Shown piece by piece: positions 29,528 to 51,990 of a DNA stretch of 64,000 bases (position 1 is the stretch's first letter; every line of letters starts with the position of its first letter). Source of the stretch: an uncultured Kocuria sp. (lineage in GTDB: Bacteria; Actinomycetota; Actinomycetes; Actinomycetales; Micrococcaceae); the NCBI RefSeq assembly GCF_947500125.1, contig NZ_CANMRA010000001.1, positions 124,001-188,000 of the forward strand, written 5' to 3'. The notes beneath the pieces were generated by a model that had not been told where the DNA came from, ran no database searches, and saw only the letters and a program-made list of their open reading frames with translations. The position numbers were made by a program, and so were the translations under genes.

Positions 29528-32098
29528 ATGAACGCGGCCGGAACGCCTCAGAGTCGTCCTGGAGCCCTGTGGGACTGGATACGTTCCTTGGCGCTCACAA
29601 TGGTCGTTCTGTTCGGCGCAACCTCTGTGCTGTTACCGCTTGCGCCGGCGGCCGCTGAACCCACCGAGCTGATCGTCAATGGCACGCTGGCCGAAGGCCG
29701 CACCGTGCCGACGTGTTTCCTGTCCGTGGGCTTTGGCACTCACAAAACGAAGGTCAAGATGACCAATGACGTGCCGGCGGGGTCAGCGACGGGCACCAGG
29801 TCCTACTCGATCAACATGACCTCCCACACCTCCGGTGACGTGAAGCTGATCCAGGACGAGGCCGCCGGATGCGCCCCGACCGTCAGTGCAGGCCAGAGCT
29901 ACGACGTCTCGGTCGACTACAAGTCCACCAGCGACAAGAACTCCATCACGGTCTTCGCCCACACCGCCGACGGTTGGGACTACTGGAAGGACCTCAAGAC
30001 GCTTCCCCCCAGCGCGGACTGGACCACCGCGCAGGCACGCATAGACAACGTCCCCGAAGGCGTGGACCGGCTCTCCTTCGGAGTCTCGCTGTACGGAGTG
30101 GGAGAACTCAAAACCACCAACTACTCCCTGATGGAAATCCCACCGCCACCACCACCACCCGGGGACGGAGAACTGATCGTCAACGGCTCGCTGAGTGCGG
30201 GGTCCACCGTTCCGACGTGTTTCCTGTCCGTAGGCTTGGGCACCCACCAGACGGAACGCACAATCGACACCGATGTGCCGGCGGGGTCAGCGACGGGCAC
30301 CAGGTCCTACTCGGTCAACATGACCTCCCACACCTCCGGTGACGTGAAGCTGATCCAGGACGAGGCCGCCGGATGCGCCCCGACCGTCAGTGCAGGCCAG
30401 AGCTACGACGTCTCGGTCGACTACAAGTCCACCAGCGACAAGAACTCCATCACGGTCTTCGCCCACACCGCCGACGGTTGGGACTACTGGAAGGACCTCA
30501 AGACGCTTCCCCCCAGCGCGGACTGGACCACCGCGCAGGCACGCATAGACAACGTCCCCGAAGGCGTGGACCGGCTCTCCTTCGGAGTCTCGCTGTACGG
30601 AGTGGGAGAACTCAAAACCACGAACTACTCCCTGAAGCAGGTTGCGCTGGAGACTCCGCCCGGATCACAGGATCCAGCGCTGATCGGCTCTTGGGAAGTC
30701 CTCGAGAACCCCTTGCCGGTGCGCGCCATCCACTCGACTCTGCTGGAAGACGGTCGGCTGCTGCTGATCGCCGGATCCGGCAACGACGGCAACGACTTCG
30801 CCGCAGGGACCTTCAAGGCCGTGGTGTGGAACCCAGGAGACAACAGTTTCACGGACGTCCCGGTGCCCTACGACATGTTCTGCGCCGGACACGTCACCCT
30901 GCCCGACGGGAAGGTTCTGCTGGCCGGCGGCACACAAGCCTTCCCGACAGGTGGGGAAGGACCCAACGCCTTCGAAGGCTCCAAGTTCAGCTACTACTTC
31001 GATCCGGCGGACAACCAGTTCCACCCGGTGACCGACATGGCCGGAGCACACTGGTACCCAAGCCTGACCAAGCTTGGCAATGGTGACGTCTGGGCCGCCG
31101 GGGGCCTCAATGAAACGGGAGACGGCACAACCCTGACCGAGCTGTTCCAATATTCATCGATGAGCTGGTTGCCGCAGAGCAGCGTGCCGCAGACCTGGAG
31201 CTACTGGGGGACCTACCCACACATGTTCCTGCTGGACGACGGGAAGATGTTCTACACCGGTGGTCACACATTCGGCAATGGGTTGCCCGGGACCGGGGCA
31301 TCCATCTATGACTGGAAGACCGCCCAAATATGGGACGTTCCGGGATTGCGAGAAAAGGACATGCGAGATCAAGCGGGCTCGGTGTTCATCGGCCCCGCCC
31401 AGGATCAACGGCTGATGATCGTGGGCGGGGGCAACACCGACACCAACAACCCGGCAATCAATCTCGTCGACATCATCGACCTCAACGCCCCGGAGCCGAC
31501 CTTCGAGCCTGGTCCTAACCTGCCCGGGCCGGGCAAACTGTACGTGAACCTGATCAATCTCCCGGACCGCACAGTATTGGCCGCCAACGGCGCCCAGTAC
31601 AACCGCTCCGGCGACGTCCTCACGGCAGCCGTGTACGACCCGCAGACCAACAACTGGCTCTCCATAAACCCGGATCCCACGGGACGGAACTACCATTCGA
31701 GTTCCGTCCTGCTGCCCGATGGCCGGGTAGCAGTGCTTGGGTCCAACCCTGCCGACAACTCATTTGAACTCCGGATCTCCGTCTACAGCCCCTCGTACCT
31801 GCACCGCGGGGAAAGGCCGCAAATTACGCAGGCTCCGGAAACTGCGGGGTACGGAGACATCCTGAATCTGGAGGTAGAGGGGGAGGTAACCGCAGCGTCG
31901 TTGATGGCACCGATGTCCTCGACCCACCAGACCGACACCAATGCCCGTCTCATCGATCTGCCCCTGGCCGGATCCGGAAGTTCCCGGACCGTCCAGGTGC
32001 CAGACAACCCCAACCTAGTGCCTCCGGGCCCCTACATGCTGACCGTCCTCGATGCGGACGGCGTTCCCAGCCAGGCCAAGTGGGTGAGGATCTCATGA
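29528..32098 (+). CDS. Secreted galactose-oxidase/GlxA-like radical copper oxidase with two tandem N-terminal carbohydrate-binding-like domains
   Basis: Signal peptide; duplicated ~165-aa domain; kelch-like repeats with 'DMFCAGHVTLPDGKVLLAGGT', 'GRNYHSSSVLLPDGRVAVLGSNP' and 'SSTHQTDTNAR' typical of copper-radical oxidases; C-terminal DUF1929-like segment. Start in the 29465-29528 region is uncertain. Confidence 0.85.
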   Translation: MNAAGTPQSRPGALWDWIRSLALTMVVLFGATSVLLPLAPAAAEPTELIVNGTLAEGRTVPTCFLSVGFGTHKTKVKMTNDVPAGSATGTRSYSINMTSHTSGDVKLIQDEAAGCAPTVSAGQSYDVSVDYKSTSDKNSITVFAHTADGWDYWKDLKTLPPSADWTTAQARIDNVPEGVDRLSFGVSLYGVGELKTTNYSLMEIPPPPPPPGDGELIVNGSLSAGSTVPTCFLSVGLGTHQTERTIDTDVPAGSATGTRSYSVNMTSHTSGDVKLIQDEAAGCAPTVSAGQSYDVSVDYKSTSDKNSITVFAHTADGWDYWKDLKTLPPSADWTTAQARIDNVPEGVDRLSFGVSLYGVGELKTTNYSLKQVALETPPGSQDPALIGSWEVLENPLPVRAIHSTLLEDGRLLLIAGSGNDGNDFAAGTFKAVVWNPGDNSFTDVPVPYDMFCAGHVTLPDGKVLLAGGTQAFPTGGEGPNAFEGSKFSYYFDPADNQFHPVTDMAGAHWYPSLTKLGNGDVWAAGGLNETGDGTTLTELFQYSSMSWLPQSSVPQTWSYWGTYPHMFLLDDGKMFYTGGHTFGNGLPGTGASIYDWKTAQIWDVPGLREKDMRDQAGSVFIGPAQDQRLMIVGGGNTDTNNPAINLVDIIDLNAPEPTFEPGPNLPGPGKLYVNLINLPDRTVLAANGAQYNRSGDVLTAAVYDPQTNNWLSINPDPTGRNYHSSSVLLPDGRVAVLGSNPADNSFELRISVYSPSYLHRGERPQITQAPETAGYGDILNLEVEGEVTAASLMAPMSSTHQTDTNARLIDLPLAGSGSSRTVQVPDNPNLVPPGPYMLTVLDADGVPSQAKWVRIS
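29771..30630 (+). repeat. Near-identical tandem duplication (~355 bp, 504-bp period) within the oxidase gene
   Basis: 29771-30126 and 30275-30630 differ at only a few bases seen (tcgatcaac/tcggtcaac, accaccaac/accacgaac); PPPPPPPG linker between domains. Confidence 0.93.
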
Positions 32099-37431: not shown

Positions 37432-38232
37432 TCAGGCTCCCGCGCTGCGACCCGCTTCCCGCCGGACGGCCTTGGCCGCCAGGAGATAGGCGAGGATCCA
37501 CGGCTCGACGACATACCGGTGGCCCAGCCGTTTCGGCTGCGTCACGAGCCGGTACGCCCACTCCAGCCCGATGGGCCCGAGCCACCGCGGCGGTGGCTTC
37601 TGGATGCCCGCGTACTCGTCGATCCCGCCGCCGACGGCCGCGTAGATCGCCGTGGGCAGCTCTTCCCAGCGCCGGCTCAGGAACTCCTCCTGCAGCGGCA
37701 TGCCCAGGCCCACGATGACGAAGTCCGGCCGGTACTCCTGGAGGGACCGGACGATGTGGTCCTCGAGCGCGGGGTTCCAGCCCTCCCCCGGCCAGCCCTC
37801 GACCTGACCGGCGGGAGCGTCCCGCCGGAGCATGTCCACCGTGCGGGCGTTGCCCGCAGGGGTCGCGCCGACGACGGCGACGCGCCGCACCGGGGTGCGC
37901 CGCATCAGGCCGGGCAGCCAGTCCAGGGTGCCGAGGCGGTGCCGCTTGGCGCTGAGCTCGCGCCCGGACCGCCACTTGGCCAGCTTCAGGACGGGGAACC
38001 CGTCCGTCAGCACCACGTCGGCCTTCTCGTAGAAGGCACGGAACGTCGGATTGACCTCCCACGTGTAGAGACTGTGCAGGTTGTGGGCGAGGACCGCGGC
38101 CTGGCGCCGCTCCTGCCACGTCGCCGAGATCCAGCGGTGCAGCTCCTCGGCGTCCATGGGCGTCACCCGGACACCGCTGACCGGGATCTCGATCGGACCC
38201 GTGCTCTGGGCACGGGACTGGTGCTTCAACAT
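37432..38232 (-). CDS. WecG/TagA/CpsF-family (GT26) glycosyltransferase
   Basis: 'VLAHNLHSLYTWEVNPTFRAFYEKADVVLTDGFPVLKLAKW', 'FVIVGLGMPLQEEFLSR', 'YAAVGGGIDEYAG.QKPPPRWLGPIGLEWAYRLVTQPKRLGHRYVVEP'. Confidence 0.92.
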   Translation of the reverse strand: MLKHQSRAQSTGPIEIPVSGVRVTPMDAEELHRWISATWQERRQAAVLAHNLHSLYTWEVNPTFRAFYEKADVVLTDGFPVLKLAKWRSGRELSAKRHRLGTLDWLPGLMRRTPVRRVAVVGATPAGNARTVDMLRRDAPAGQVEGWPGEGWNPALEDHIVRSLQEYRPDFVIVGLGMPLQEEFLSRRWEELPTAIYAAVGGGIDEYAGIQKPPPRWLGPIGLEWAYRLVTQPKRLGHRYVVEPWILAYLLAAKAVRREAGRSAGA

Positions 38233-38517
38233 GTGTCTTCCCCCTGTGCTGCGCGTCTGCGACGCCTCGCTCCCCCGCCGGGATCCCGTGACCGGGCCGA
38301 CTTCTTCGCTGGGCGCACCGTCCATGGTGCGGCAGGATCCCCCCGGATCCCGCCGGCGAACCGGCACCCCCTGGCGCACACGTCCCGCATCCACCAGCCC
38401 TGGTGACCGGGATCATGCACCTGCATTTACGCTAGCAAAGCCAGTGCCGCGTCATGCCACTCAGGACTGTCCCCAGTTAAGGGCCTGTTTGCATAGATGT
38501 GCACTTGTAAAGTCATC

Positions 38518-38573
38518 GATGGGGGCCGGAACCACGCCGGGGGGGGCGTAGGAGGAGTGTTCCGGCCCCCATC
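38518..38573 (+). promoter_or_regulatory. Structured 5' leader hairpin directly upstream of the first glycosylphosphotransferase
   Basis: GATGGGGGCCGGAAC (38518-38532) / GTTCCGGCCCCCATC (38559-38573) perfect 15-bp stem with a nested ACGCC/GGCGT hairpin; GTG start at 38587. Confidence 0.6.
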
Positions 38574-38586
38574 ACACTCGGGGGGA

Positions 38587-40071
38587 GTGACCAACGTGCT
38601 CAAGAAGAACATGTCCGTGCGACCTGCCGCCTGGCGGGAGACCCACATCAGGAGCCTGCGCCACGTGGACGCGGCCGCCCTGGCCGCCACGCTGATCCTG
38701 ACGCAGCTGGTGCGCTTCGGCTTCGAGCAGGAGGCGCTCAGACTGGGTCAGTTCACCATGCCGTACTGGCTGGTGGGCGCCGTGCTGGGTGGGACCTGGT
38801 GGGGCTGGCTGGAGCTGCGGGGCGCCCGCGACGTGCGCCTGATCGGCTACGCCGTGGAGGAGAACCGGCAGGTCGTCTCGGCCACACTGGTGCTCTTCGG
38901 CGCCCTGGCCATCCTGTCCTACGTGCTCAACGTGCCGATGGCCCGCAGCTACGTGGTGATCGCCCTGCCGCTGGGCACGCTCCTGCTGCTGGCGGGACGA
39001 GGCGTGGTCCGGCGGGGGCTGACCCGCCGCCGGCTGGCCGGCGAGGCGATGTCCCGGACCCTGGTGGTCGGGCGCGTGCCGGGGGTCGTGGAGATGCTCA
39101 AGTCCCTGCAGCAGAATCCGGCCGCGGGCTTCGACCCGGTGGCGGTCTACGCGCCGTCGTCGTCCCGGATTCTGCCGCACCACCTGGCCCGGGTGCCGAT
39201 GCCCGAGAACATGCTGCCGGCCGGGGAAGTGCCCAGCGTGGAGGGGATCGTGGCCGCGTGCCGCGCCCACCGGATCGAGACCCTGGTGATGGCCGCGAGC
39301 GCCCCGCTGAGCTCGGAGGAGGTCCGGCACCTGAGCTGGTACCTGGCCGACGAGCGCATCCGCCTGGTCCTCGACACCGGGCTCACCGACATCGCCGGCC
39401 CGCGCATCCACACCCAGCAGATGGCCGGACTGCCGCTGATCCACGTCTCCACCCCGCGGATGAGCCGGTCCCGGCTGCTGCTCAAGCGCCTCGTCGACCT
39501 CGCCGGCGCCGTCACCGCACTGGTGGCCCTCTCCCCCGTCATGCTCGCGCTGGCGATGATCGTCAAGGCGCACGACGGCGGGCCTGTGCTCTTCGCCCAG
39601 GAGCGCACCGGCCTGGACGGAACGACCTTCAGGATGCTGAAGTTCCGCTCGATGTACACCGACGCCGAGGAGCGCAAGGCCGAGCTCATGGCCGCCAACG
39701 ACGCCAAGGGCGGCGTCCTGTTCTTCATGGCCGACGACCCCCGGGTCACGGCACCGGGTCGGTGGATGCGCAAGTACAGCCTCGACGAGCTCCCGCAGTT
39801 CCTCAACGTGCTCAAGGGTGAGATGTCCCTGGTGGGCCCGCGCCCGCCGCTGCCCTCCGAGGTCGCCCAGTACGAGGAGCACGTCCACCGCCGGCTACGC
39901 GTGAAGCCAGGCATCACCGGCCTGTGGCAGGTCTCGGGCCGCGACGACCTGGACTGGGAGCAGGCCGTGCGCCTGGACCTCTACTACGTGGAGAACTGGT
40001 CCCCGGTTCAGGACTTCGTGATCCTGCTCCGCACCGTCAAGGCCGTGGTGGCCAAGGAGGGCGCGCACTGA
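38587..40071 (+). CDS. Polyprenyl glycosylphosphotransferase (WbaP/CpsE-type initiating sugar transferase), paralog 1
   Basis: N-terminal TMs; 'SRSRLLLKRLVDLAGAVTALVALSPVMLALAMIVK', 'LKFRSMYTDAEERK', 'YSLDELPQFLNVLKGEMSLVGPRPPLPSEV', 'RRLRVKPGITGLWQVSGRDDLDWEQAVRLDLYYVENWS'. Confidence 0.96.
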   Translation: MTNVLKKNMSVRPAAWRETHIRSLRHVDAAALAATLILTQLVRFGFEQEALRLGQFTMPYWLVGAVLGGTWWGWLELRGARDVRLIGYAVEENRQVVSATLVLFGALAILSYVLNVPMARSYVVIALPLGTLLLLAGRGVVRRGLTRRRLAGEAMSRTLVVGRVPGVVEMLKSLQQNPAAGFDPVAVYAPSSSRILPHHLARVPMPENMLPAGEVPSVEGIVAACRAHRIETLVMAASAPLSSEEVRHLSWYLADERIRLVLDTGLTDIAGPRIHTQQMAGLPLIHVSTPRMSRSRLLLKRLVDLAGAVTALVALSPVMLALAMIVKAHDGGPVLFAQERTGLDGTTFRMLKFRSMYTDAEERKAELMAANDAKGGVLFFMADDPRVTAPGRWMRKYSLDELPQFLNVLKGEMSLVGPRPPLPSEVAQYEEHVHRRLRVKPGITGLWQVSGRDDLDWEQAVRLDLYYVENWSPVQDFVILLRTVKAVVAKEGAH

Positions 40072-40273
40072 AAGCCGGACTCAGGCTTGGAGGCTGGGGC
40101 CCCCGCGCTCGCCACGGTGAAGTCGGCTCGAACCAGTCGACGAACCGATCGATTCGCATACGTCCCAGTAGTTCCATCCCGTGACGCACCCGGTGCCGGA
40201 TCTTTACCCGATCTCCGAAACAGCCTCTGACTAGCGGCGTAGTCTCGATCTTGCCTACTCATCGGGGGGAAGA

Positions 40274-40702
40274 ATGAAAAATCTGCGCGGGAGGATCGCC
40301 GCCGCCATGATGGCCGGCGCGCTCATGACCGGAGCCTTCGTGGCACCGGCTTCGGCATCGGCAGGCGTTTCGGAGTACAGGTCCGGCGATGCCCCGGCCA
40401 GTCTGCAGATCGCTGAGAAGAAGCCTGACAAGAAGTACAAGAAGCACGACCAGTACATCCAGGTCAGCCACTGGAAGTACGACCACAAGTACAAGCAGTG
40501 GCATCGCGTGGAGTACTACAAGCACAGCCACCACAACTGGGCCGCGAAGTACGCCGCCGACAAGTGCGACGCGAAGTACAACTGGGCTCACAAGAAGGCC
40601 CAGTACGTCGAGAAGCACGATGTGAAGCATTGGTCCGAGGTGTGCAAGTACAAGAAGCACAACACCTGGTACCAGGTCCGGTACGCCGACAACAGGCACT
40701 GA
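40274..40702 (+). CDS. Small secreted Lys/Tyr/His/Trp-rich protein of unknown function
   Basis: Sec signal peptide 'MKNLRGRIAAAMMAGALMTGAFVAPASASA'; mature region 'KKPDKKYKKHDQYIQVSHWKYDHKYKQWHRVEYYKHSHHNWAAKYAADKCDAKYNWAHKKAQYVEKHDVKHWSEVCKYKKHNTWYQVRYADNRH'; SD GGGGGGAAGA. Confidence 0.85.
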   Translation: MKNLRGRIAAAMMAGALMTGAFVAPASASAGVSEYRSGDAPASLQIAEKKPDKKYKKHDQYIQVSHWKYDHKYKQWHRVEYYKHSHHNWAAKYAADKCDAKYNWAHKKAQYVEKHDVKHWSEVCKYKKHNTWYQVRYADNRH

Positions 40703-40847
40703 TCAATCGGTCGCACCCGGGAAATGCCCCGTCGAAGCGCCGGCGGGGCATTCCCATGCACCGTGCACCCAGACGCCGCGGGCGATCCCATTGGGCAGGA
40801 TGACGCCCCAGGATTATCGACCCCGCCGGCGCGGTCACCGTCCTGGC

Positions 40848-40944
40848 GGATCTCCCCTACGGAGAGAACTGGTCCCCGGTCCAGGACTTCGTGATTCTGC
40901 TGCGCACCGTCAAGGCCGTGGTGACCGAGGAGGGCGCGCACTAA
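40848..40944 (+). pseudogene. 3'-terminal remnant of a third glycosylphosphotransferase paralog
   Basis: 'ENWSPVQDFVILLRTVKAVVTEEGAH*' nearly identical to the C-terminus of 38587..40071. Confidence 0.85.
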
Positions 40945-41353
40945 CGGTCGTCGGCGACCTCTGCCTCCACCTGGGTTCGTCGGCTCCTCCCCACACCGCC
41001 ACCACGAGCAGGAAGTACAGTGCGCCGACGAGCACGACGTGGAGTCCCAGCCCGGCCGAGTACAGTCCCCCGGCCAGCAGCAGCAGCGCCACGGCGACGG
41101 GGACGACCTTGGGGCCTCAGCCCGGGGCTTGTACAGTCCGCTGGCGTGACCCCCGACACGCCATGGAGGTGCGCGCTGGACAATGGTCCACACGAAAGCA
41201 CTTCCTGCATAGGGAGTGGGGCGCGGCAATAGACTTTTGTCCGGTCCGATGGGGACCATGTGGGGACAGAAATCCGCCCCCACTAGGGCCGTCGCGTGGA
41301 TACGATCAATGCACCCACCGATCCGTACCCCTCGACGGACAAGCGAGAATCCG

Positions 41354-41815
41354 ATGCGTACATCCCCCATTTCCACCGACGTCCAGCACTACCTCGAGTC
41401 CTGCTCCCCCGCGGGCCTCACCCTCCTGGAGCTCGACATCGTCGAGGACGTCGCCGAGCTCACCCTGGCCTTCACCCCCGAGGCCCTCGACCGCGTGCTG
41501 CGCACCCAGCTGCGTACCGCCGGCACCCCGAGCGACTGGGACTGCCCGAAGGCGTCCATGGACGTCGGCACCCCCACCTGGGCCTACGCCCTGGAACTGG
41601 CCGGCCTCTTCAACGAGCACTACTTCGGCCATGTGGTCCTCGAGCGCCACGAGGCCGCCCTGCAGGAGATCCTCGCCGCCCACGGTCACGAGGGCACACC
41701 CATGGTGATCCGCCCCGCCTACGCCCCCAGCTGCCTGGCGCTGAACCTCCGCCGACTGAAGGCCGAGCACCTCCGCACCGCCGGCCTCACCGGCTCGCAC
41801 GCTCGCGCCGCTTGA
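41354..41815 (+). CDS. Hypothetical cytosolic protein
   Basis: Codon-biased ORF, 'MRTSPISTDVQHYLESCSPAGLTLLELDIVEDVAELTLAF...'; no family recognised. Confidence 0.55.
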   Translation: MRTSPISTDVQHYLESCSPAGLTLLELDIVEDVAELTLAFTPEALDRVLRTQLRTAGTPSDWDCPKASMDVGTPTWAYALELAGLFNEHYFGHVVLERHEAALQEILAAHGHEGTPMVIRPAYAPSCLALNLRRLKAEHLRTAGLTGSHARAA

Positions 41816-42118
41816 GCCGTACCCCCAAGGGCACCACAGTCCCCCGGTTGGGGGACACGCGACGGCACCGTCCGCGTCGGGGCAGACTTCCCCACCCGAC
41901 GACGTGACCCCCGTCACCACTAGGCACAATGCCAATCCGCGAGTTCCCGGCACAGTCAAGTGCAAGTGCAAACACCTTTCGTCATAGAACCGGTTTCATT
42001 GATTTGCGCCACTAAACTGGTGACAAGTGCAATGCAGCGCGCGGTCCACCGTCTCCCCCACGGGCTGGGAGAAGACAACCCCAGGTGGCCGCGTGCTTTT
42101 CGGGGAGGGAGCACCACC

Positions 42119-43654
42119 ATGCTCAAGGTCAACGAGATCAGCCGAGCGGACGACCACCGGCGTCCGCAGCTCAACGCCGCACGCGCCGCCGCCCGCGACG
42201 CCGCGTCCCGTTCTGGCTGGCGATCCACCTACCTCACCCGTATGCGCTGGGCCGACGGCCTGGCGCTGATCGTCACCCTCATCGGCGCTCACCTGCTCAG
42301 GTTCCAGCTGGAGAACGCCGGCCTCGACCTCGGCCCCCTGTCGGTCCCCTACTGGATCGTGGGCATCGCTCTGGCCCTGACCTGGTGGATGCACCTGGGC
42401 GCCCGCGGCGCCCGGGACGTCCGTCTCATCGGCCACGGCCTTGAGGAAACCCGCCAGGTGGTGCACTCGAGCCTCATCCTCTTCGGCGCGATCGCCATCA
42501 TTTCGTTCGGCTTCGACCTCCCCACGGCCCGCAGCTACGTCCTGCTGGCCCTCCCCCTCGGCCTGGGATTCCTGATCCTCGGCCGCTTTCTGGTGCGAGA
42601 TCGACTCGTCAAGGCCCGGTACAAGGGTGAGGCACTCTCCAAGACCATGGTGGTGGGACGGCTGGCCGGCACGTGCGACCTCATCAAGTCCCTGCGCCAG
42701 CACCCGACCTCGGGGCTCGACGCGGCCGCCGTCTACGTCCCCGAGACCCGCAAGCCGATCCCAGCCGAGCTGCAGCGCATGAGCCTCCCGCCCAACGCGC
42801 TCGCCCCGGGTGCGCGCCCCACCGTGGAGGGCATTGTCGACGCCTGCCACGAGCGCGACATCGAGACCGTGGTCCTGTCCTCCAACGTCCCCCTGGGCAC
42901 CACTGAGATCCGCCACCTCAGCTGGCAGCTCGCCGACGCCCACATCCGCCTGGTCATGGACACCGGCCTCACCGACATCGCGGGCCCCCGCATCCACATG
43001 CAGCAGGTGGCCGGCCTCCCCCTCATCCACGTGGCAACCCCCAAGCTGAGCCGTAGCCGCGCCATGACCAAGCGCCTCATGGACATCCTCGGCTCCGGGG
43101 CCGCCCTCCTAGTCCTCTCCCCCGTCCTGATCACCCTCACGCTGGTCGTCAAAACGCACGACAAGGGCCCCGCCTTCTTCGCCCAGGAACGCATCGGCCA
43201 GGACGGCAGCCGCTTCAAGATGCTGAAGTTCCGCAGCATGCGCACCGACGCCGAGCAGGTGCTGCAGCGCCTCAAGGAGCAGAACGAAGGCGCCGGCCTG
43301 CTCTTCAAGATGAAGGACGACCCCCGTGTCACGAGCCCGGGCCAGTGGATGCGCCGCTACAGTCTGGACGAGCTCCCCCAGTTCCTCAACGTCCTCAAGG
43401 GCGAGATGTCACTAGTAGGTCCCCGCCCACCGCTCCCCGCGGAGGTGGAACAGTACGAGGACTACGTCCACCGCCGGCTGCGCGTGAAGCCCGGAATCAC
43501 CGGCCTCTGGCAGGTATCCGGACGCTCGAACCTCGATTGGGAGCAGTCGGTGCGCCTGGACCTCTACTACGTGGAGAACTGGTCTCCGGTGCAGGATGTC
43601 TTGATACTCGGCCGGACGATTAAGGCGGTCGTGGCCAAAGAAGGCGCGTATTAG
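42119..43654 (+). CDS. Polyprenyl glycosylphosphotransferase, paralog 2
   Basis: 'LKFRSMRTDAEQVLQRLKEQNEGAGLLFKMKDDPRVTSPGQWMRRYSLDELPQFLNVLKGEMSLVGPRPPLPAEV...'; GGGGAGGGAG SD; strong similarity to 38587..40071. Confidence 0.96.
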   Translation: MLKVNEISRADDHRRPQLNAARAAARDAASRSGWRSTYLTRMRWADGLALIVTLIGAHLLRFQLENAGLDLGPLSVPYWIVGIALALTWWMHLGARGARDVRLIGHGLEETRQVVHSSLILFGAIAIISFGFDLPTARSYVLLALPLGLGFLILGRFLVRDRLVKARYKGEALSKTMVVGRLAGTCDLIKSLRQHPTSGLDAAAVYVPETRKPIPAELQRMSLPPNALAPGARPTVEGIVDACHERDIETVVLSSNVPLGTTEIRHLSWQLADAHIRLVMDTGLTDIAGPRIHMQQVAGLPLIHVATPKLSRSRAMTKRLMDILGSGAALLVLSPVLITLTLVVKTHDKGPAFFAQERIGQDGSRFKMLKFRSMRTDAEQVLQRLKEQNEGAGLLFKMKDDPRVTSPGQWMRRYSLDELPQFLNVLKGEMSLVGPRPPLPAEVEQYEDYVHRRLRVKPGITGLWQVSGRSNLDWEQSVRLDLYYVENWSPVQDVLILGRTIKAVVAKEGAY

Positions 43655-48259: not shown

Positions 48260-49666
48260 CTAGGACCTTCCCTTTTGGTGCTTGGCGGCAATCAGCCAGA
48301 AGCTCCTCTTGGCCTTCCCAACTGCCCGCTTAGCATAAGATGGTTTGCTCCAGCGATCATAAGCCGCAATAAGGGGAATCATTCCCTTCAAGTAATGCTC
48401 CAAATTGCCCGCCTCTTTCGCAGTCTGGAACAGGCCAAAGCTCGCCGCCGAAAGCTGCCGACGCTGACGAATTACCCCCAGCCGCTGACGAGTGATGCCG
48501 GCATACCCTGGTATAACTCTTTTTCGAGGGACCCACCGACCAGACTTGATGTCGTCCATCAATCGCGCACGGAGTCCAAGACGTCGGTGACGATAATTGC
48601 CTGCCTGTGCCTTCGCAACTGCGTCAACCTCGAGCGGTTCAACCTCCAATAACCCCGAAGTAAAACCGTTCGAAATTATTTCGTCAATGACTTCGTTGCG
48701 CGTCACTACGATGTTATGACCGCGCCAGTCTGCCTCATACTTAGGCAACCAAGCATCCGCGAAAACCACGTCCGCCGTCTCTGCATAGATGTCGTCACAG
48801 AAGTTACAGGCATTAGGCTGAAACACCGAATGGCCCCAGCTACCGCCGACCAGTTCCATGGGGGACGAAGTCTTGTAGTTGTCTTCTCCAATGGCTCGAA
48901 CACCGAACTGGTAGCCTCTCGAACCGGCTTTCGGATTCTTGATCCGGAAGTCGACCTGACCAATGGCATCCGGCTCAACACCCAATTGCCAAGCCATGGA
49001 TTCAGCATATGCGGAGGACTTCAAGTGCCCGCAGACCAGGCCTAGGTAGTAGATGATCTGCTCTTGCAAAGTGGCATCTATTTCGGCCAGCGAACGAACG
49101 GCCTTGACGAAACACGGAATGCCGACGAAAGCGTAGCGGCGCCCGTCCCCACGTATACTTTCCAGAACCTCCGCAAAAGAGACAGAATAGTACATGGACT
49201 TCCGGTGGGTGATAATTTCATCGACCGTGGTAGAGACGCGGTACTCGAAAAGCTTGTCGCCCGCGGCGCCACCCACGTGGATGACACCGTCCACGAGGCC
49301 TTCTTCGAGAAGTCGTTGCGCAACCCAACTCGTCATGCCGCCGGAGCTGCTTCCCTCAACTCTCTCCTGTTCGACGACCCTCGCTGCCATAGTGCTCCTG
49401 TACATACCGATTCGCTCGTCCTTAGCCAGCGCAGGGTCGAAAAGTCGTGCCGCCATGGCCGTCTCGTCTTCCGATTCATCAGCCCAAGGGCAAACTTGAC
49501 TGGCGATGGCCAAGGAGTCAGGTTCCATGCCGTGGACGTCGGCCTGAAACAGACCAATCTCATTGAAAAATACCTTCGCGCCTCCACCTGTGGAAACGCC
49601 GCAACCGCCGCATCCGATGCAGCAGTCATTCGCAACGACCTTTGATATCGACTCAGTCATCGTCAA
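48260..49666 (-). CDS. FrhB-like (coenzyme F420 hydrogenase/dehydrogenase beta-subunit family) protein of EPS loci
   Basis: 'CCIGCGGCGVSTGG', 'RVEGSSSGGMTSWVAQRLLEEGLVDGVIHVG', 'VGIPCFVKAVRSL', 'ACNFCDDIYAETADVVFADAWLPKYEADWRGHNIVVTRN'. Confidence 0.88.
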   Translation of the reverse strand: MTMTESISKVVANDCCIGCGGCGVSTGGGAKVFFNEIGLFQADVHGMEPDSLAIASQVCPWADESEDETAMAARLFDPALAKDERIGMYRSTMAARVVEQERVEGSSSGGMTSWVAQRLLEEGLVDGVIHVGGAAGDKLFEYRVSTTVDEIITHRKSMYYSVSFAEVLESIRGDGRRYAFVGIPCFVKAVRSLAEIDATLQEQIIYYLGLVCGHLKSSAYAESMAWQLGVEPDAIGQVDFRIKNPKAGSRGYQFGVRAIGEDNYKTSSPMELVGGSWGHSVFQPNACNFCDDIYAETADVVFADAWLPKYEADWRGHNIVVTRNEVIDEIISNGFTSGLLEVEPLEVDAVAKAQAGNYRHRRLGLRARLMDDIKSGRWVPRKRVIPGYAGITRQRLGVIRQRRQLSAASFGLFQTAKEAGNLEHYLKGMIPLIAAYDRWSKPSYAKRAVGKAKRSFWLIAAKHQKGRS

Positions 49667-49673
49667 AACCTCT

Positions 49674-50891
49674 CTATTCTTTTTCGTTTTTCCGTGACGG
49701 TATGCGTACCCAAAACACCGTCAGCACCGTCAATTGAAAAATGATGCCGATAACGTATCCCGCGGCACCCGACTCCAGCCCACCGTACGCGCTCCCAAAC
49801 CATAGGCCGGCCAGCGAGATTAAGGAGCCGGTCATCGAAATACGAGAAACAAGGGCGTGCCGGCGCAGTCCCTGCATCGCGGCGTTTACCATATAAATCA
49901 TAGACAGCCCCACAAAACCGAAAAAGTAAATGAGGGTGACCGGGACAGCTGAGCTGAACTCCTCGCCGAGAACCAAGGCGATAAGCGGTTCGATAAATAT
50001 TGCTATTACAAGCAAAATGGTAGCGATAAAAGCCGTTACAAAACCGGCACCCAGTATAAACTTGCGCTTAGGAAACGTTCGGGCCGCCGACGTCTTCGGG
50101 AGCACCAACGTTGCCAATGACGTCGGAATCATCATGATCGGTGACCCGATTTTTGACGGCACGGCCAGGAGACCGGAGGCGGTCGGCCCGAGTACGAAGC
50201 CCACTACCACAACGTCCAATAGGCGCACCTGGCCACTTATCGTGTCCCACCAATAGTGCTTCGACTCCCGGAGGATCTTCCGCACGTCAACAGATGGCTT
50301 GCTTGCCGGTGCGAAATCAATCCTGCGCCGCAACCGCCAGTTGCATACGGCTTCGGAAACCGCGATCGATAATGAAAAAGCAAATGCAACCGGCAGGGAG
50401 AACAATACTCCGGCAACAAATATTGCCAACGCAAGGATGCGCCGAAGTGCCAGATTGCTCGAGAACAGTCCGGTTTGACCATCGGCAACGGCAATGCTGT
50501 TCAGAACGGCGGCGTCTCGCTGAAATCCGAGGGCGAGGACAAAAGGAAGGAACCACCAGGCGCGACTGTCCCAGAGCATCGTCATCAGGACGATCACGCA
50601 CAGCAGAGCCACGAGGGCAGAATTGACAAATCTGTTGAGTCGGTAAATCCCCTGGACGTCCCTGTGGTTTTTGTCCCTCGCTCGTACCACGCTCATATAT
50701 GGCCCAAGACCCAGCCCAAGCATCCAGGCCATGGCCGTGACGCCTGCTTGGACAGCGATGACAAGTCCGAAGTCGCCCGTACTCGACCAACGAGCTAGTA
50801 GCACTAATGAACAAGTTTGGGCGACTGCAGCCACGACCCTGCCTGATAGGAGACCGGCGACCTGCCGACCGAGGTTCCTACCTTTGAACAA
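49674..50891 (-). CDS. Wzx-like polysaccharide flippase (MOP superfamily)
   Basis: Polytopic, 'GRQVAGLLSGRVVAAVAQTCSLVLLARWSSTGDFGLVIAVQAG', 'GFVLGPTASGLLAVPSKIGSPIMMIPTSLATLVLPK'; probable TTG start near 50891. Confidence 0.82.
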   Translation of the reverse strand: MFKGRNLGRQVAGLLSGRVVAAVAQTCSLVLLARWSSTGDFGLVIAVQAGVTAMAWMLGLGLGPYMSVVRARDKNHRDVQGIYRLNRFVNSALVALLCVIVLMTMLWDSRAWWFLPFVLALGFQRDAAVLNSIAVADGQTGLFSSNLALRRILALAIFVAGVLFSLPVAFAFSLSIAVSEAVCNWRLRRRIDFAPASKPSVDVRKILRESKHYWWDTISGQVRLLDVVVVGFVLGPTASGLLAVPSKIGSPIMMIPTSLATLVLPKTSAARTFPKRKFILGAGFVTAFIATILLVIAIFIEPLIALVLGEEFSSAVPVTLIYFFGFVGLSMIYMVNAAMQGLRRHALVSRISMTGSLISLAGLWFGSAYGGLESGAAGYVIGIIFQLTVLTVFWVRIPSRKNEKE

Positions 50892-51990
50892 AGTTTGGGT
50901 CTTTCCGGGCTGCTTGAGAAGGCACGGCGATGATCTGAGATTCGATGGTCTTGAGTTGCTCGTGAGCAGCCGTAACTCCGGCCCGAATTTCTTCACGACG
51001 ATTGAGCACGGAATGGAGGAATTTGAGCATTTCGGTACTCGATGCATTCTCAGCGTCCTGGGTGATACCCAAGATTCCCGCAGCCTGGAAATGAGTCCTG
51101 ACTTTACTGCTGGGCGTCGGGACAACTTCACAGGGAAGGCACCCTCCGAGAGCTGCCAGGATCAGCACGTGCAGCCGATCGCTGATGACCATAGTCGCCT
51201 CGGCGTACATCCCGCGGAGCAATTGCTCCTGCTCAATGTCATCTCTATTGCCGAAATCAACGCACTCACCACCCAAGGCGGTAGCGAGTTCCGCGGTCCG
51301 GATTTCGTCCTGACGAACCTGAGCGACACAGGTAATCGACAGTCCTTGCTCGTGTGCGAGTCGTCGTACGGCTTCTTCCCAAGCAGCCGACGGCCGAGGA
51401 CGTAACCCGCGCAGGCTAATCAGCAGCCGGTGACGGGAGGGAGACTTGTCTCCGTAGGGTGACTCACTGAAAGCAATGTCGGGCACCACACGTCCCATGC
51501 CCACCAGTCTCCGGCTATCGGACTCCCGCCAGAGGTTCACAGTAGACAGCTGTAATCCCAACTTATGCAAGAAGGTCAGAGCCCGGGAGGGGTGACTTAA
51601 CGAACGAGGCGGTCGGATTACTCGTCCGCCTTTGAAGCGGGTCATGATGACGAACAAGAGCACCATGACTTCCCACTTGTACTGGTTCAGCCTCAAGTCC
51701 ACCTCACCCGGCTCAAGGACAAGGGTGTACCCGCGCGGCGCCCGTAGCATCGCTACAAGCCACGCTCTGATGTTGGCCTGCTGATAGACGTCATCTCGGG
51801 ATGTCAGACCAATTTGTCGACACCACATGTCCGGCGCCCGGCCGATGAAGGCAGCCACCGGCTGTCCGCACAAGCGGGCCCAGGCAAGCGATCGGCGGCG
51901 GATCAAGGCGTCACCGATATTTGGGTAGTCGCCGGTGAGGGTGACAAACACCCGATTTTCGGACTGGTTGCCAGTCATTGCATTAGTCAT
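50878..51990 (-). CDS. Polysaccharide pyruvyltransferase family protein
   Basis: 'VFVTLTGDYPNIGDALIRRRSLAW', 'LVLEPGEVDL', 'ATMVISDRLHVLILAALGGCLPCEV'. Confidence 0.82.
   Translation of the reverse strand: MTNAMTGNQSENRVFVTLTGDYPNIGDALIRRRSLAWARLCGQPVAAFIGRAPDMWCRQIGLTSRDDVYQQANIRAWLVAMLRAPRGYTLVLEPGEVDLRLNQYKWEVMVLLFVIMTRFKGGRVIRPPRSLSHPSRALTFLHKLGLQLSTVNLWRESDSRRLVGMGRVVPDIAFSESPYGDKSPSRHRLLISLRGLRPRPSAAWEEAVRRLAHEQGLSITCVAQVRQDEIRTAELATALGGECVDFGNRDDIEQEQLLRGMYAEATMVISDRLHVLILAALGGCLPCEVVPTPSSKVRTHFQAAGILGITQDAENASSTEMLKFLHSVLNRREEIRAGVTAAHEQLKTIESQIIAVPSQAARKDPNFVQR

Follow-up and report, generated by a model that had tools for sequence, protein, structure and literature searches.

A probable divergent member of an undescribed Kocuria family of small secreted two-Cys proteins, encoded at a variable site of an EPS locus

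The gene at 40274-40702 of the window (the whole stretch of 64,000 nucleotides of Kocuria DNA that was analysed) is real, and its product is an exported, very positively charged small protein. Judging from profile comparisons, this protein almost certainly belongs to an undescribed Kocuria family of small secreted two-Cys proteins. The best explanation as a whole, to which we give a probability of about 0.4, is that it is a divergent exported member of this family, stapled by a disulfide, which would bind anionic polymers outside the cell.

The gene and its product

The features of the locus are as follows.

40083-41175 (no strand): accessory stretch of 1,093 bp flanked by conserved EPS segments; in the related genome G003 it measures 169 bp (locus comparison)
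40168-40185 (+): 18-nt motif GTAGTTCC-ATC-CCGTGAC, located some 105 nt ahead of the start codon, common to other family genes at the same distance
40264-40271 (+): ribosome-binding site (RBS) GGGGGGAA, conserved as GGGGGAA in relatives
40274-40702 (+): gene for the K/H/Y/W-rich secreted protein of 142 aa (ORF call, composition, homology)
40274-40363 (+): Sec signal peptide, residues 1 to about 30 (sequence; same signal type in all relatives)
40364-40441 (+): variable linker, residues 31-56, different in each relative (alignment)
40442-40699 (+): family domain, residues 57-142, predicted beta-beta-alpha-beta-beta with low confidence (profile matches; AlphaFold2 model, pLDDT 63)
40565-40567 (+): conserved Cys98, terminating the predicted helix (alignments)
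40643-40645 (+): conserved Cys124 in the third predicted strand, in a probable disulfide with Cys98 (alignments)
40817-40946 (+): remnant of a third sugar-transferase gene (middle pieces and tail), 3' of the ORF (repeat families D3 and D6; tail matches in G003, G023 and G014)

The frame is intact, with an ATG start and a TGA stop after 142 codons. The N-terminus, MKNLRGRIAAAMMAGALMTGAFVAPASASA, has the look of an ordinary Sec signal, and since neither a sortase signal nor a lipobox was seen in the 142-aa sequence, the exported protein would be soluble or adhere to the wall. The mature part of 114 aa contains 18% K, 11% H, 11% Y and 5% W (45% together), 11% D+E and two Cys, with a net charge of +11 (K+R-D-E) and a pI of about 9.5. 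The sequence-only reading had described a secreted, cationic and aromatic protein with two Cys, which is borne out by these values, and the K/Y/H/W repeats that it quoted are all found in the protein. It had also called the composition unusual, and the content of K+H+Y+W is indeed far above chance for the genome group, the mean being 9.6% (sd 6.1) across 213 called genes no shorter than 90 aa, a sample confined to the window and the loci of the relatives; the 12 highest values of this sample all come from the window gene and related ones. Codon use is native (AAG 20 versus AAA 1, TAC 13 versus TAT 0, GC3 0.89) and matches the genome, and the composition is therefore set by the amino acids and not by a foreign or AT-rich stretch. 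The antisense ORF 40259-40699 was rejected as a gene, as it is the mirror image of the K/Y/H codons.

A Kocuria family and its wider kin

No family match was obtained with the window protein in Pfam, NCBIfam and PDB sequence searches, in line with the earlier statement that no family was recognised, and as a direct query it had no match in public genome, viral or plasmid collections. Within the genus it gave a single weak match (31%, E 5e-4) to a two-repeat secreted protein of Kocuria dechangensis (G005), and the family emerged only once a K. dechangensis relative replaced the window protein as the query. The protein is thus not the orphan it had been taken for, since relatives were found in Kocuria by profile and relative-based searches. 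Roughly one in three of the Kocuria genomes searched carries the family, to which nothing corresponded in the scans of Pfam, NCBIfam and PHROGs. Several candidate matches were discarded: Pfam Tudor, MWFE, DUF3679 and similar models scored far below cut-off, the PDB sequence matches were attributed to chance, as was the composition match of locus L046 (from a MAG labelled 'Proteobacteria'), and the weak matches L003, L004, L006 and L008 of the Micrococcaceae search were judged unrelated on inspection. Chaplins (PF03777) were not matched in Pfam at E values up to 10, either by the window protein or by the four Val-rich proteins described below.

Scored against profiles built without it, the window protein reached 29.6 bits (four Cys-bearing relatives), 24.6 bits (seven relatives) and 22.3 bits (ten relatives), and for each profile none of 10,000 composition-preserving shuffles reached the corresponding score. 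A score of 29.8 bits was likewise not equalled by any of 10,000 shuffles with the Cys fixed, nor with Cys and Ala fixed. The alignment shows a common order of elements: a pair of strand-like segments is followed by a helix-like segment carrying A-x3-A-x3-C or a near variant and then, after a loop, by one strand that ends in Cys and a final one. All Cys-bearing members have counterparts of Cys98 and Cys124 in the alignment, at the helix end and before the last strand, and one Cys98-Cys124 disulfide is probable. Both Cys are missing from the branch that includes the two-repeat proteins, so that some members do without the disulfide. In the tree the window protein groups with members from G006 and G016 and two from G005 (97/97), on the longest branch and with an unsure exact placement; from these comparisons it is to be regarded as an extreme, divergent member.

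The Kocuria K/H-rich relatives (e.g. K. dechangensis NZ_BMEQ01000035, L045) resemble the window protein in their Sec signal, which is of the same type throughout, in domain order and in RBS; the closer ones also conserve the two Cys, and the Cys-bearing branch has the upstream motif in common with the window gene. They are, however, only 17-35% identical to the window protein and sit elsewhere in the genome. The remaining K-rich members have a basic pI as well (8.8-9.3), and most relatives carry strong charge of both signs (D+E 17-28%), whereas the window copy is mostly basic and richer in Tyr and Trp. A second K-rich copy lies in the window's own genome (G000 contig 1, 26745-27125, about 97 kb before the window start), together with a third, compact copy on a different contig.

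AlphaFold2 predicted a beta-beta-alpha-beta-beta arrangement for the window protein (pLDDT 63, pTM 0.52) from a very shallow alignment of three rows, drawn from window and L045 sequences only, and a model of the K. dechangensis domain has nearly the same order of elements (pLDDT 52). The fold is thus proposed with low confidence. A known domain of unrelated function was not found by structure search: Foldseek gave no significant match (best E 0.78), and VIA-align found no significant fold either, its best Z of 5.5 being of the order that common arrangements reach. The best Foldseek match, the fold of the colicin E3 immunity protein, is similar to the model in its order of strands and helix but is not significant (E 0.78, probability 0.18, Z 3.3). 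The colicin E3 immunity protein acts inside the cell.

The 18-nt motif is present in the window as GTAGTTCCATCCCGTGAC, and it was found at equal distance in eight family genes (the window gene and seven others). Its exact pattern, GTAGTKCCNNNYCGTGAY, occurs five times in 27 Kocuria genomes and four of these five lie upstream of family genes, a count that holds for the exact pattern, looser matches also occurring elsewhere in the genomes. A copy in G005 contig 10 is followed by no family gene and was taken as chance. By its distribution the motif appears to be almost private to the family. GTTCC and GTGAC stand 10-11 nt apart, a spacing reminiscent of response-regulator sites; against the MtrA consensus of S. 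coelicolor, K-T-R-A-C-C-N5-G-T-K-A-C-N (PMC5650626), the right half GTGAC fits and the left half AGTTCC fits in its last two bases only. A promoter scan found no sigma-70 site, and a regulator binding the 18-nt site would probably switch the gene on. The Cys-lacking branch has a different conserved upstream element, TTAAC...GAAATTTGCTTGTG (L017, L022, L024, L016 and L002), which points to two types of control within the family.

The compact members of the family have a mature part of 65-70 aa with 11-15% K+H+Y+W and 0-3% His. The window protein matches the core Kocuria members with 25.5 bits, and in the Cys-bearing orthologues the core and compact members match each other with 15-33 bits (0 of 2,000 shuffles in both cases); against the compact profile, the more divergent members score low or give no match. 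The compact members are in turn connected to Val-rich two-Cys secreted proteins from other genera of the Micrococcaceae with 16-37 bits (0 of 2,000 in both directions), the genome matches to these far kin having E values from 1.5e-6 to 1e-2. The window protein had no direct match to them, and the link is therefore a chain through the compact members. Four of these proteins (L124, L125, L127 and L131) have the same signal as the family, a VxVxVG start, a helix-like stretch ending in Cys and a second Cys before the final strand. They differ in lacking any K/H/Y/W enrichment, with a mature part of about 70 aa, and are linked to the family via the compact Kocuria members only. Neither the compact members nor the Val-rich kin match a Pfam family, and the gene neighbourhoods of the far kin have nothing evident in common. 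K/H/Y/W-rich members were not found outside Kocuria in 395 genomes of the family, 396 of the order and 345 of the class, two marginal matches in the family-level search (E 0.007 and 0.02) both being short. Similarly, profile A3 detected no member outside the genus in the order and class samples, wider kin being reached only via the compact members. On the simplest reading a plain two-Cys secreted domain would be ancestral and the K/H/Y/W surface a later change in one clade, a direction that we infer.

Genomic setting

The core copy of the family occupies a single conserved place in six genomes (G000, G003, G005, G006, G014 and G016), where it precedes genes for Holin-X (Phage_holin_3_6), a NIPA-like membrane protein and a GT4 glycosyltransferase, near genes that by eye we take to be rpsB-tsf-pyrH-frr. 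Beside the core copy in G003 (L051:3163-9258) and G000 (L047:10448-16556) lies a gene for a 1396-aa protein with AMP-binding, carrier, membrane and hexapeptide parts, which resembles a cationic homopoly(amino acid) synthetase and has a class III aminotransferase alongside; in G000 an apparent frameshift near residue 662 breaks it in two, and in G014 and G006 it is missing from this place. The relatives are found beside Holin-X, gnd or resolvases, and none lies in the EPS cluster of the window.

In the window, the gene is flanked by two sugar-transferase genes and by the gene for a conserved 153-aa protein without a Pfam match. The latter (41354-41815) also lies between the sugar transferases and is 62-92% identical in G023, G003 and G014. 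The EPS segments on either side of the accessory stretch, 37462-40082 and 41176-43653, match G003 at 93% and 84%. In G006 some 160 bp separate the two sugar transferases, and other genes occupy the same site over about 2 kb in G014 and about 3.5 kb in G023; this cargo (L086:12050-14250 in G014, L084:2900-6560 in G023) presumably includes VOC-like and MFS-like genes, named by eye. The site thus looks like a small cargo hotspot of the EPS locus with differing genes in each relative. The sugar-transferase remnant suggests recombination between sugar-transferase tails. As the relatives of the window gene lie elsewhere and the site is variable, the EPS setting is a landing site and incidental; the gene would have arrived as an accessory gene, bringing along a control region of its own, and not as a part of EPS synthesis.

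Possible functions

We tentatively consider the binding of anionic polymers (wall, EPS or DNA) as the most likely function, on the basis of composition, export and the probable disulfide. Outside the cell, the protein would form a small alpha/beta domain stapled by one Cys98-Cys124 disulfide, whose surface, dense in Lys, Arg, His, Tyr and Trp, may bind wall teichoic or teichuronic acid, acidic EPS and extracellular DNA through charge and aromatic contacts, in the role of a matrix or wall-associated binder. Given the strong charge of both signs in most relatives and the low K+H+Y+W content of the compact members, polycation binding cannot have been the ancestral function of the fold.

A secreted antimicrobial or competition protein appears unlikely. 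The cationic, amphiphilic and aromatic composition with two Cys would suit it, as would the lineage-specific expansion with fast divergence, the resolvases adjoining several relatives and the variable site of the window gene. However, no immunity or ABC transporter gene was seen adjacent to the window gene, the neighbours being the sugar transferases and the 153-aa protein, and the core copy is chromosomal and fixed at one place in six genomes. PADLOC gave no match and the Pfam search no bacteriocin family, lactococcin 972-type bacteriocins (PF09683) included, only the sub-threshold Tudor and MWFE models being listed.

The protein is improbable as a dedicated EPS cross-linker that evolved with the cluster and condenses pyruvylated EPS, perhaps aided by the copper oxidase. 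It is strongly cationic, and its gene has a sugar-transferase gene on either side, in a cluster where a pyruvyl transferase is weakly matched. Nevertheless, the same EPS genes occur in G003, G006, G014 and G023 with no trace of the window protein in their EPS loci, so that synteny with the two glycosyltransferases, put forward earlier as a check, fails in these four genomes; with family members elsewhere, the proposed tie to the EPS locus is positional and not functional. The oxidase-linked Tyr chemistry that had been suggested does not fit either, because the nearby oxidase (29759-32095, about 8 kb from the gene) is galactose-oxidase-like, and the substrates that this family oxidises are alcohols and not tyrosine. 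Neither a specific cross-linking of EPS nor an oxidase chemistry is supported; a Lys-aldehyde link to oxidised galactose would be conceivable. The EPS cluster also encodes an FrhB/FdhB-type protein beside polysaccharide pyruvyl transferase-like (weak match) and flippase-like proteins (48260-51990, minus strand).

Metal or haem binding or buffering is similarly improbable: the mature window protein is rich in His, and K. dechangensis proteins with similar signal peptides reach 24-25% His, but the His positions vary across the family, the conserved residues are the two Cys only, and the compact members have next to no His. The two K. dechangensis (G005) proteins in question, L013:1492-1947 (-) and L014:1501-1839 (+), have closely similar signal peptides and His-rich sequence of the type CHHHEGxKHxH..., and are candidate metal binders. 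A decaying paralogue or a recombination-carried relic without present function is very unlikely, as the longest branch, the adjoining sugar-transferase remnant and the occurrence of the window copy in only one genome of the genus sample are set against an open frame, native codon use, both Cys, the domain core, the RBS and the upstream motif, all retained.

Beyond anionic-polymer binding as such, a Micrococcaceae two-Cys domain might have been rebuilt in one Kocuria clade with Lys/His/Tyr/Trp surfaces, a fixed core and a shared, dedicated regulatory site, and would then represent a folded matrix or adhesive protein of a new type, a proposal that we regard as doubtful. The family would offer an example of a small secreted fold whose surface composition was rebuilt within one genus while the two Cys and the core were retained. 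The former orphan now stands in a family whose regulatory element can be tested and whose members vary naturally in charge design.
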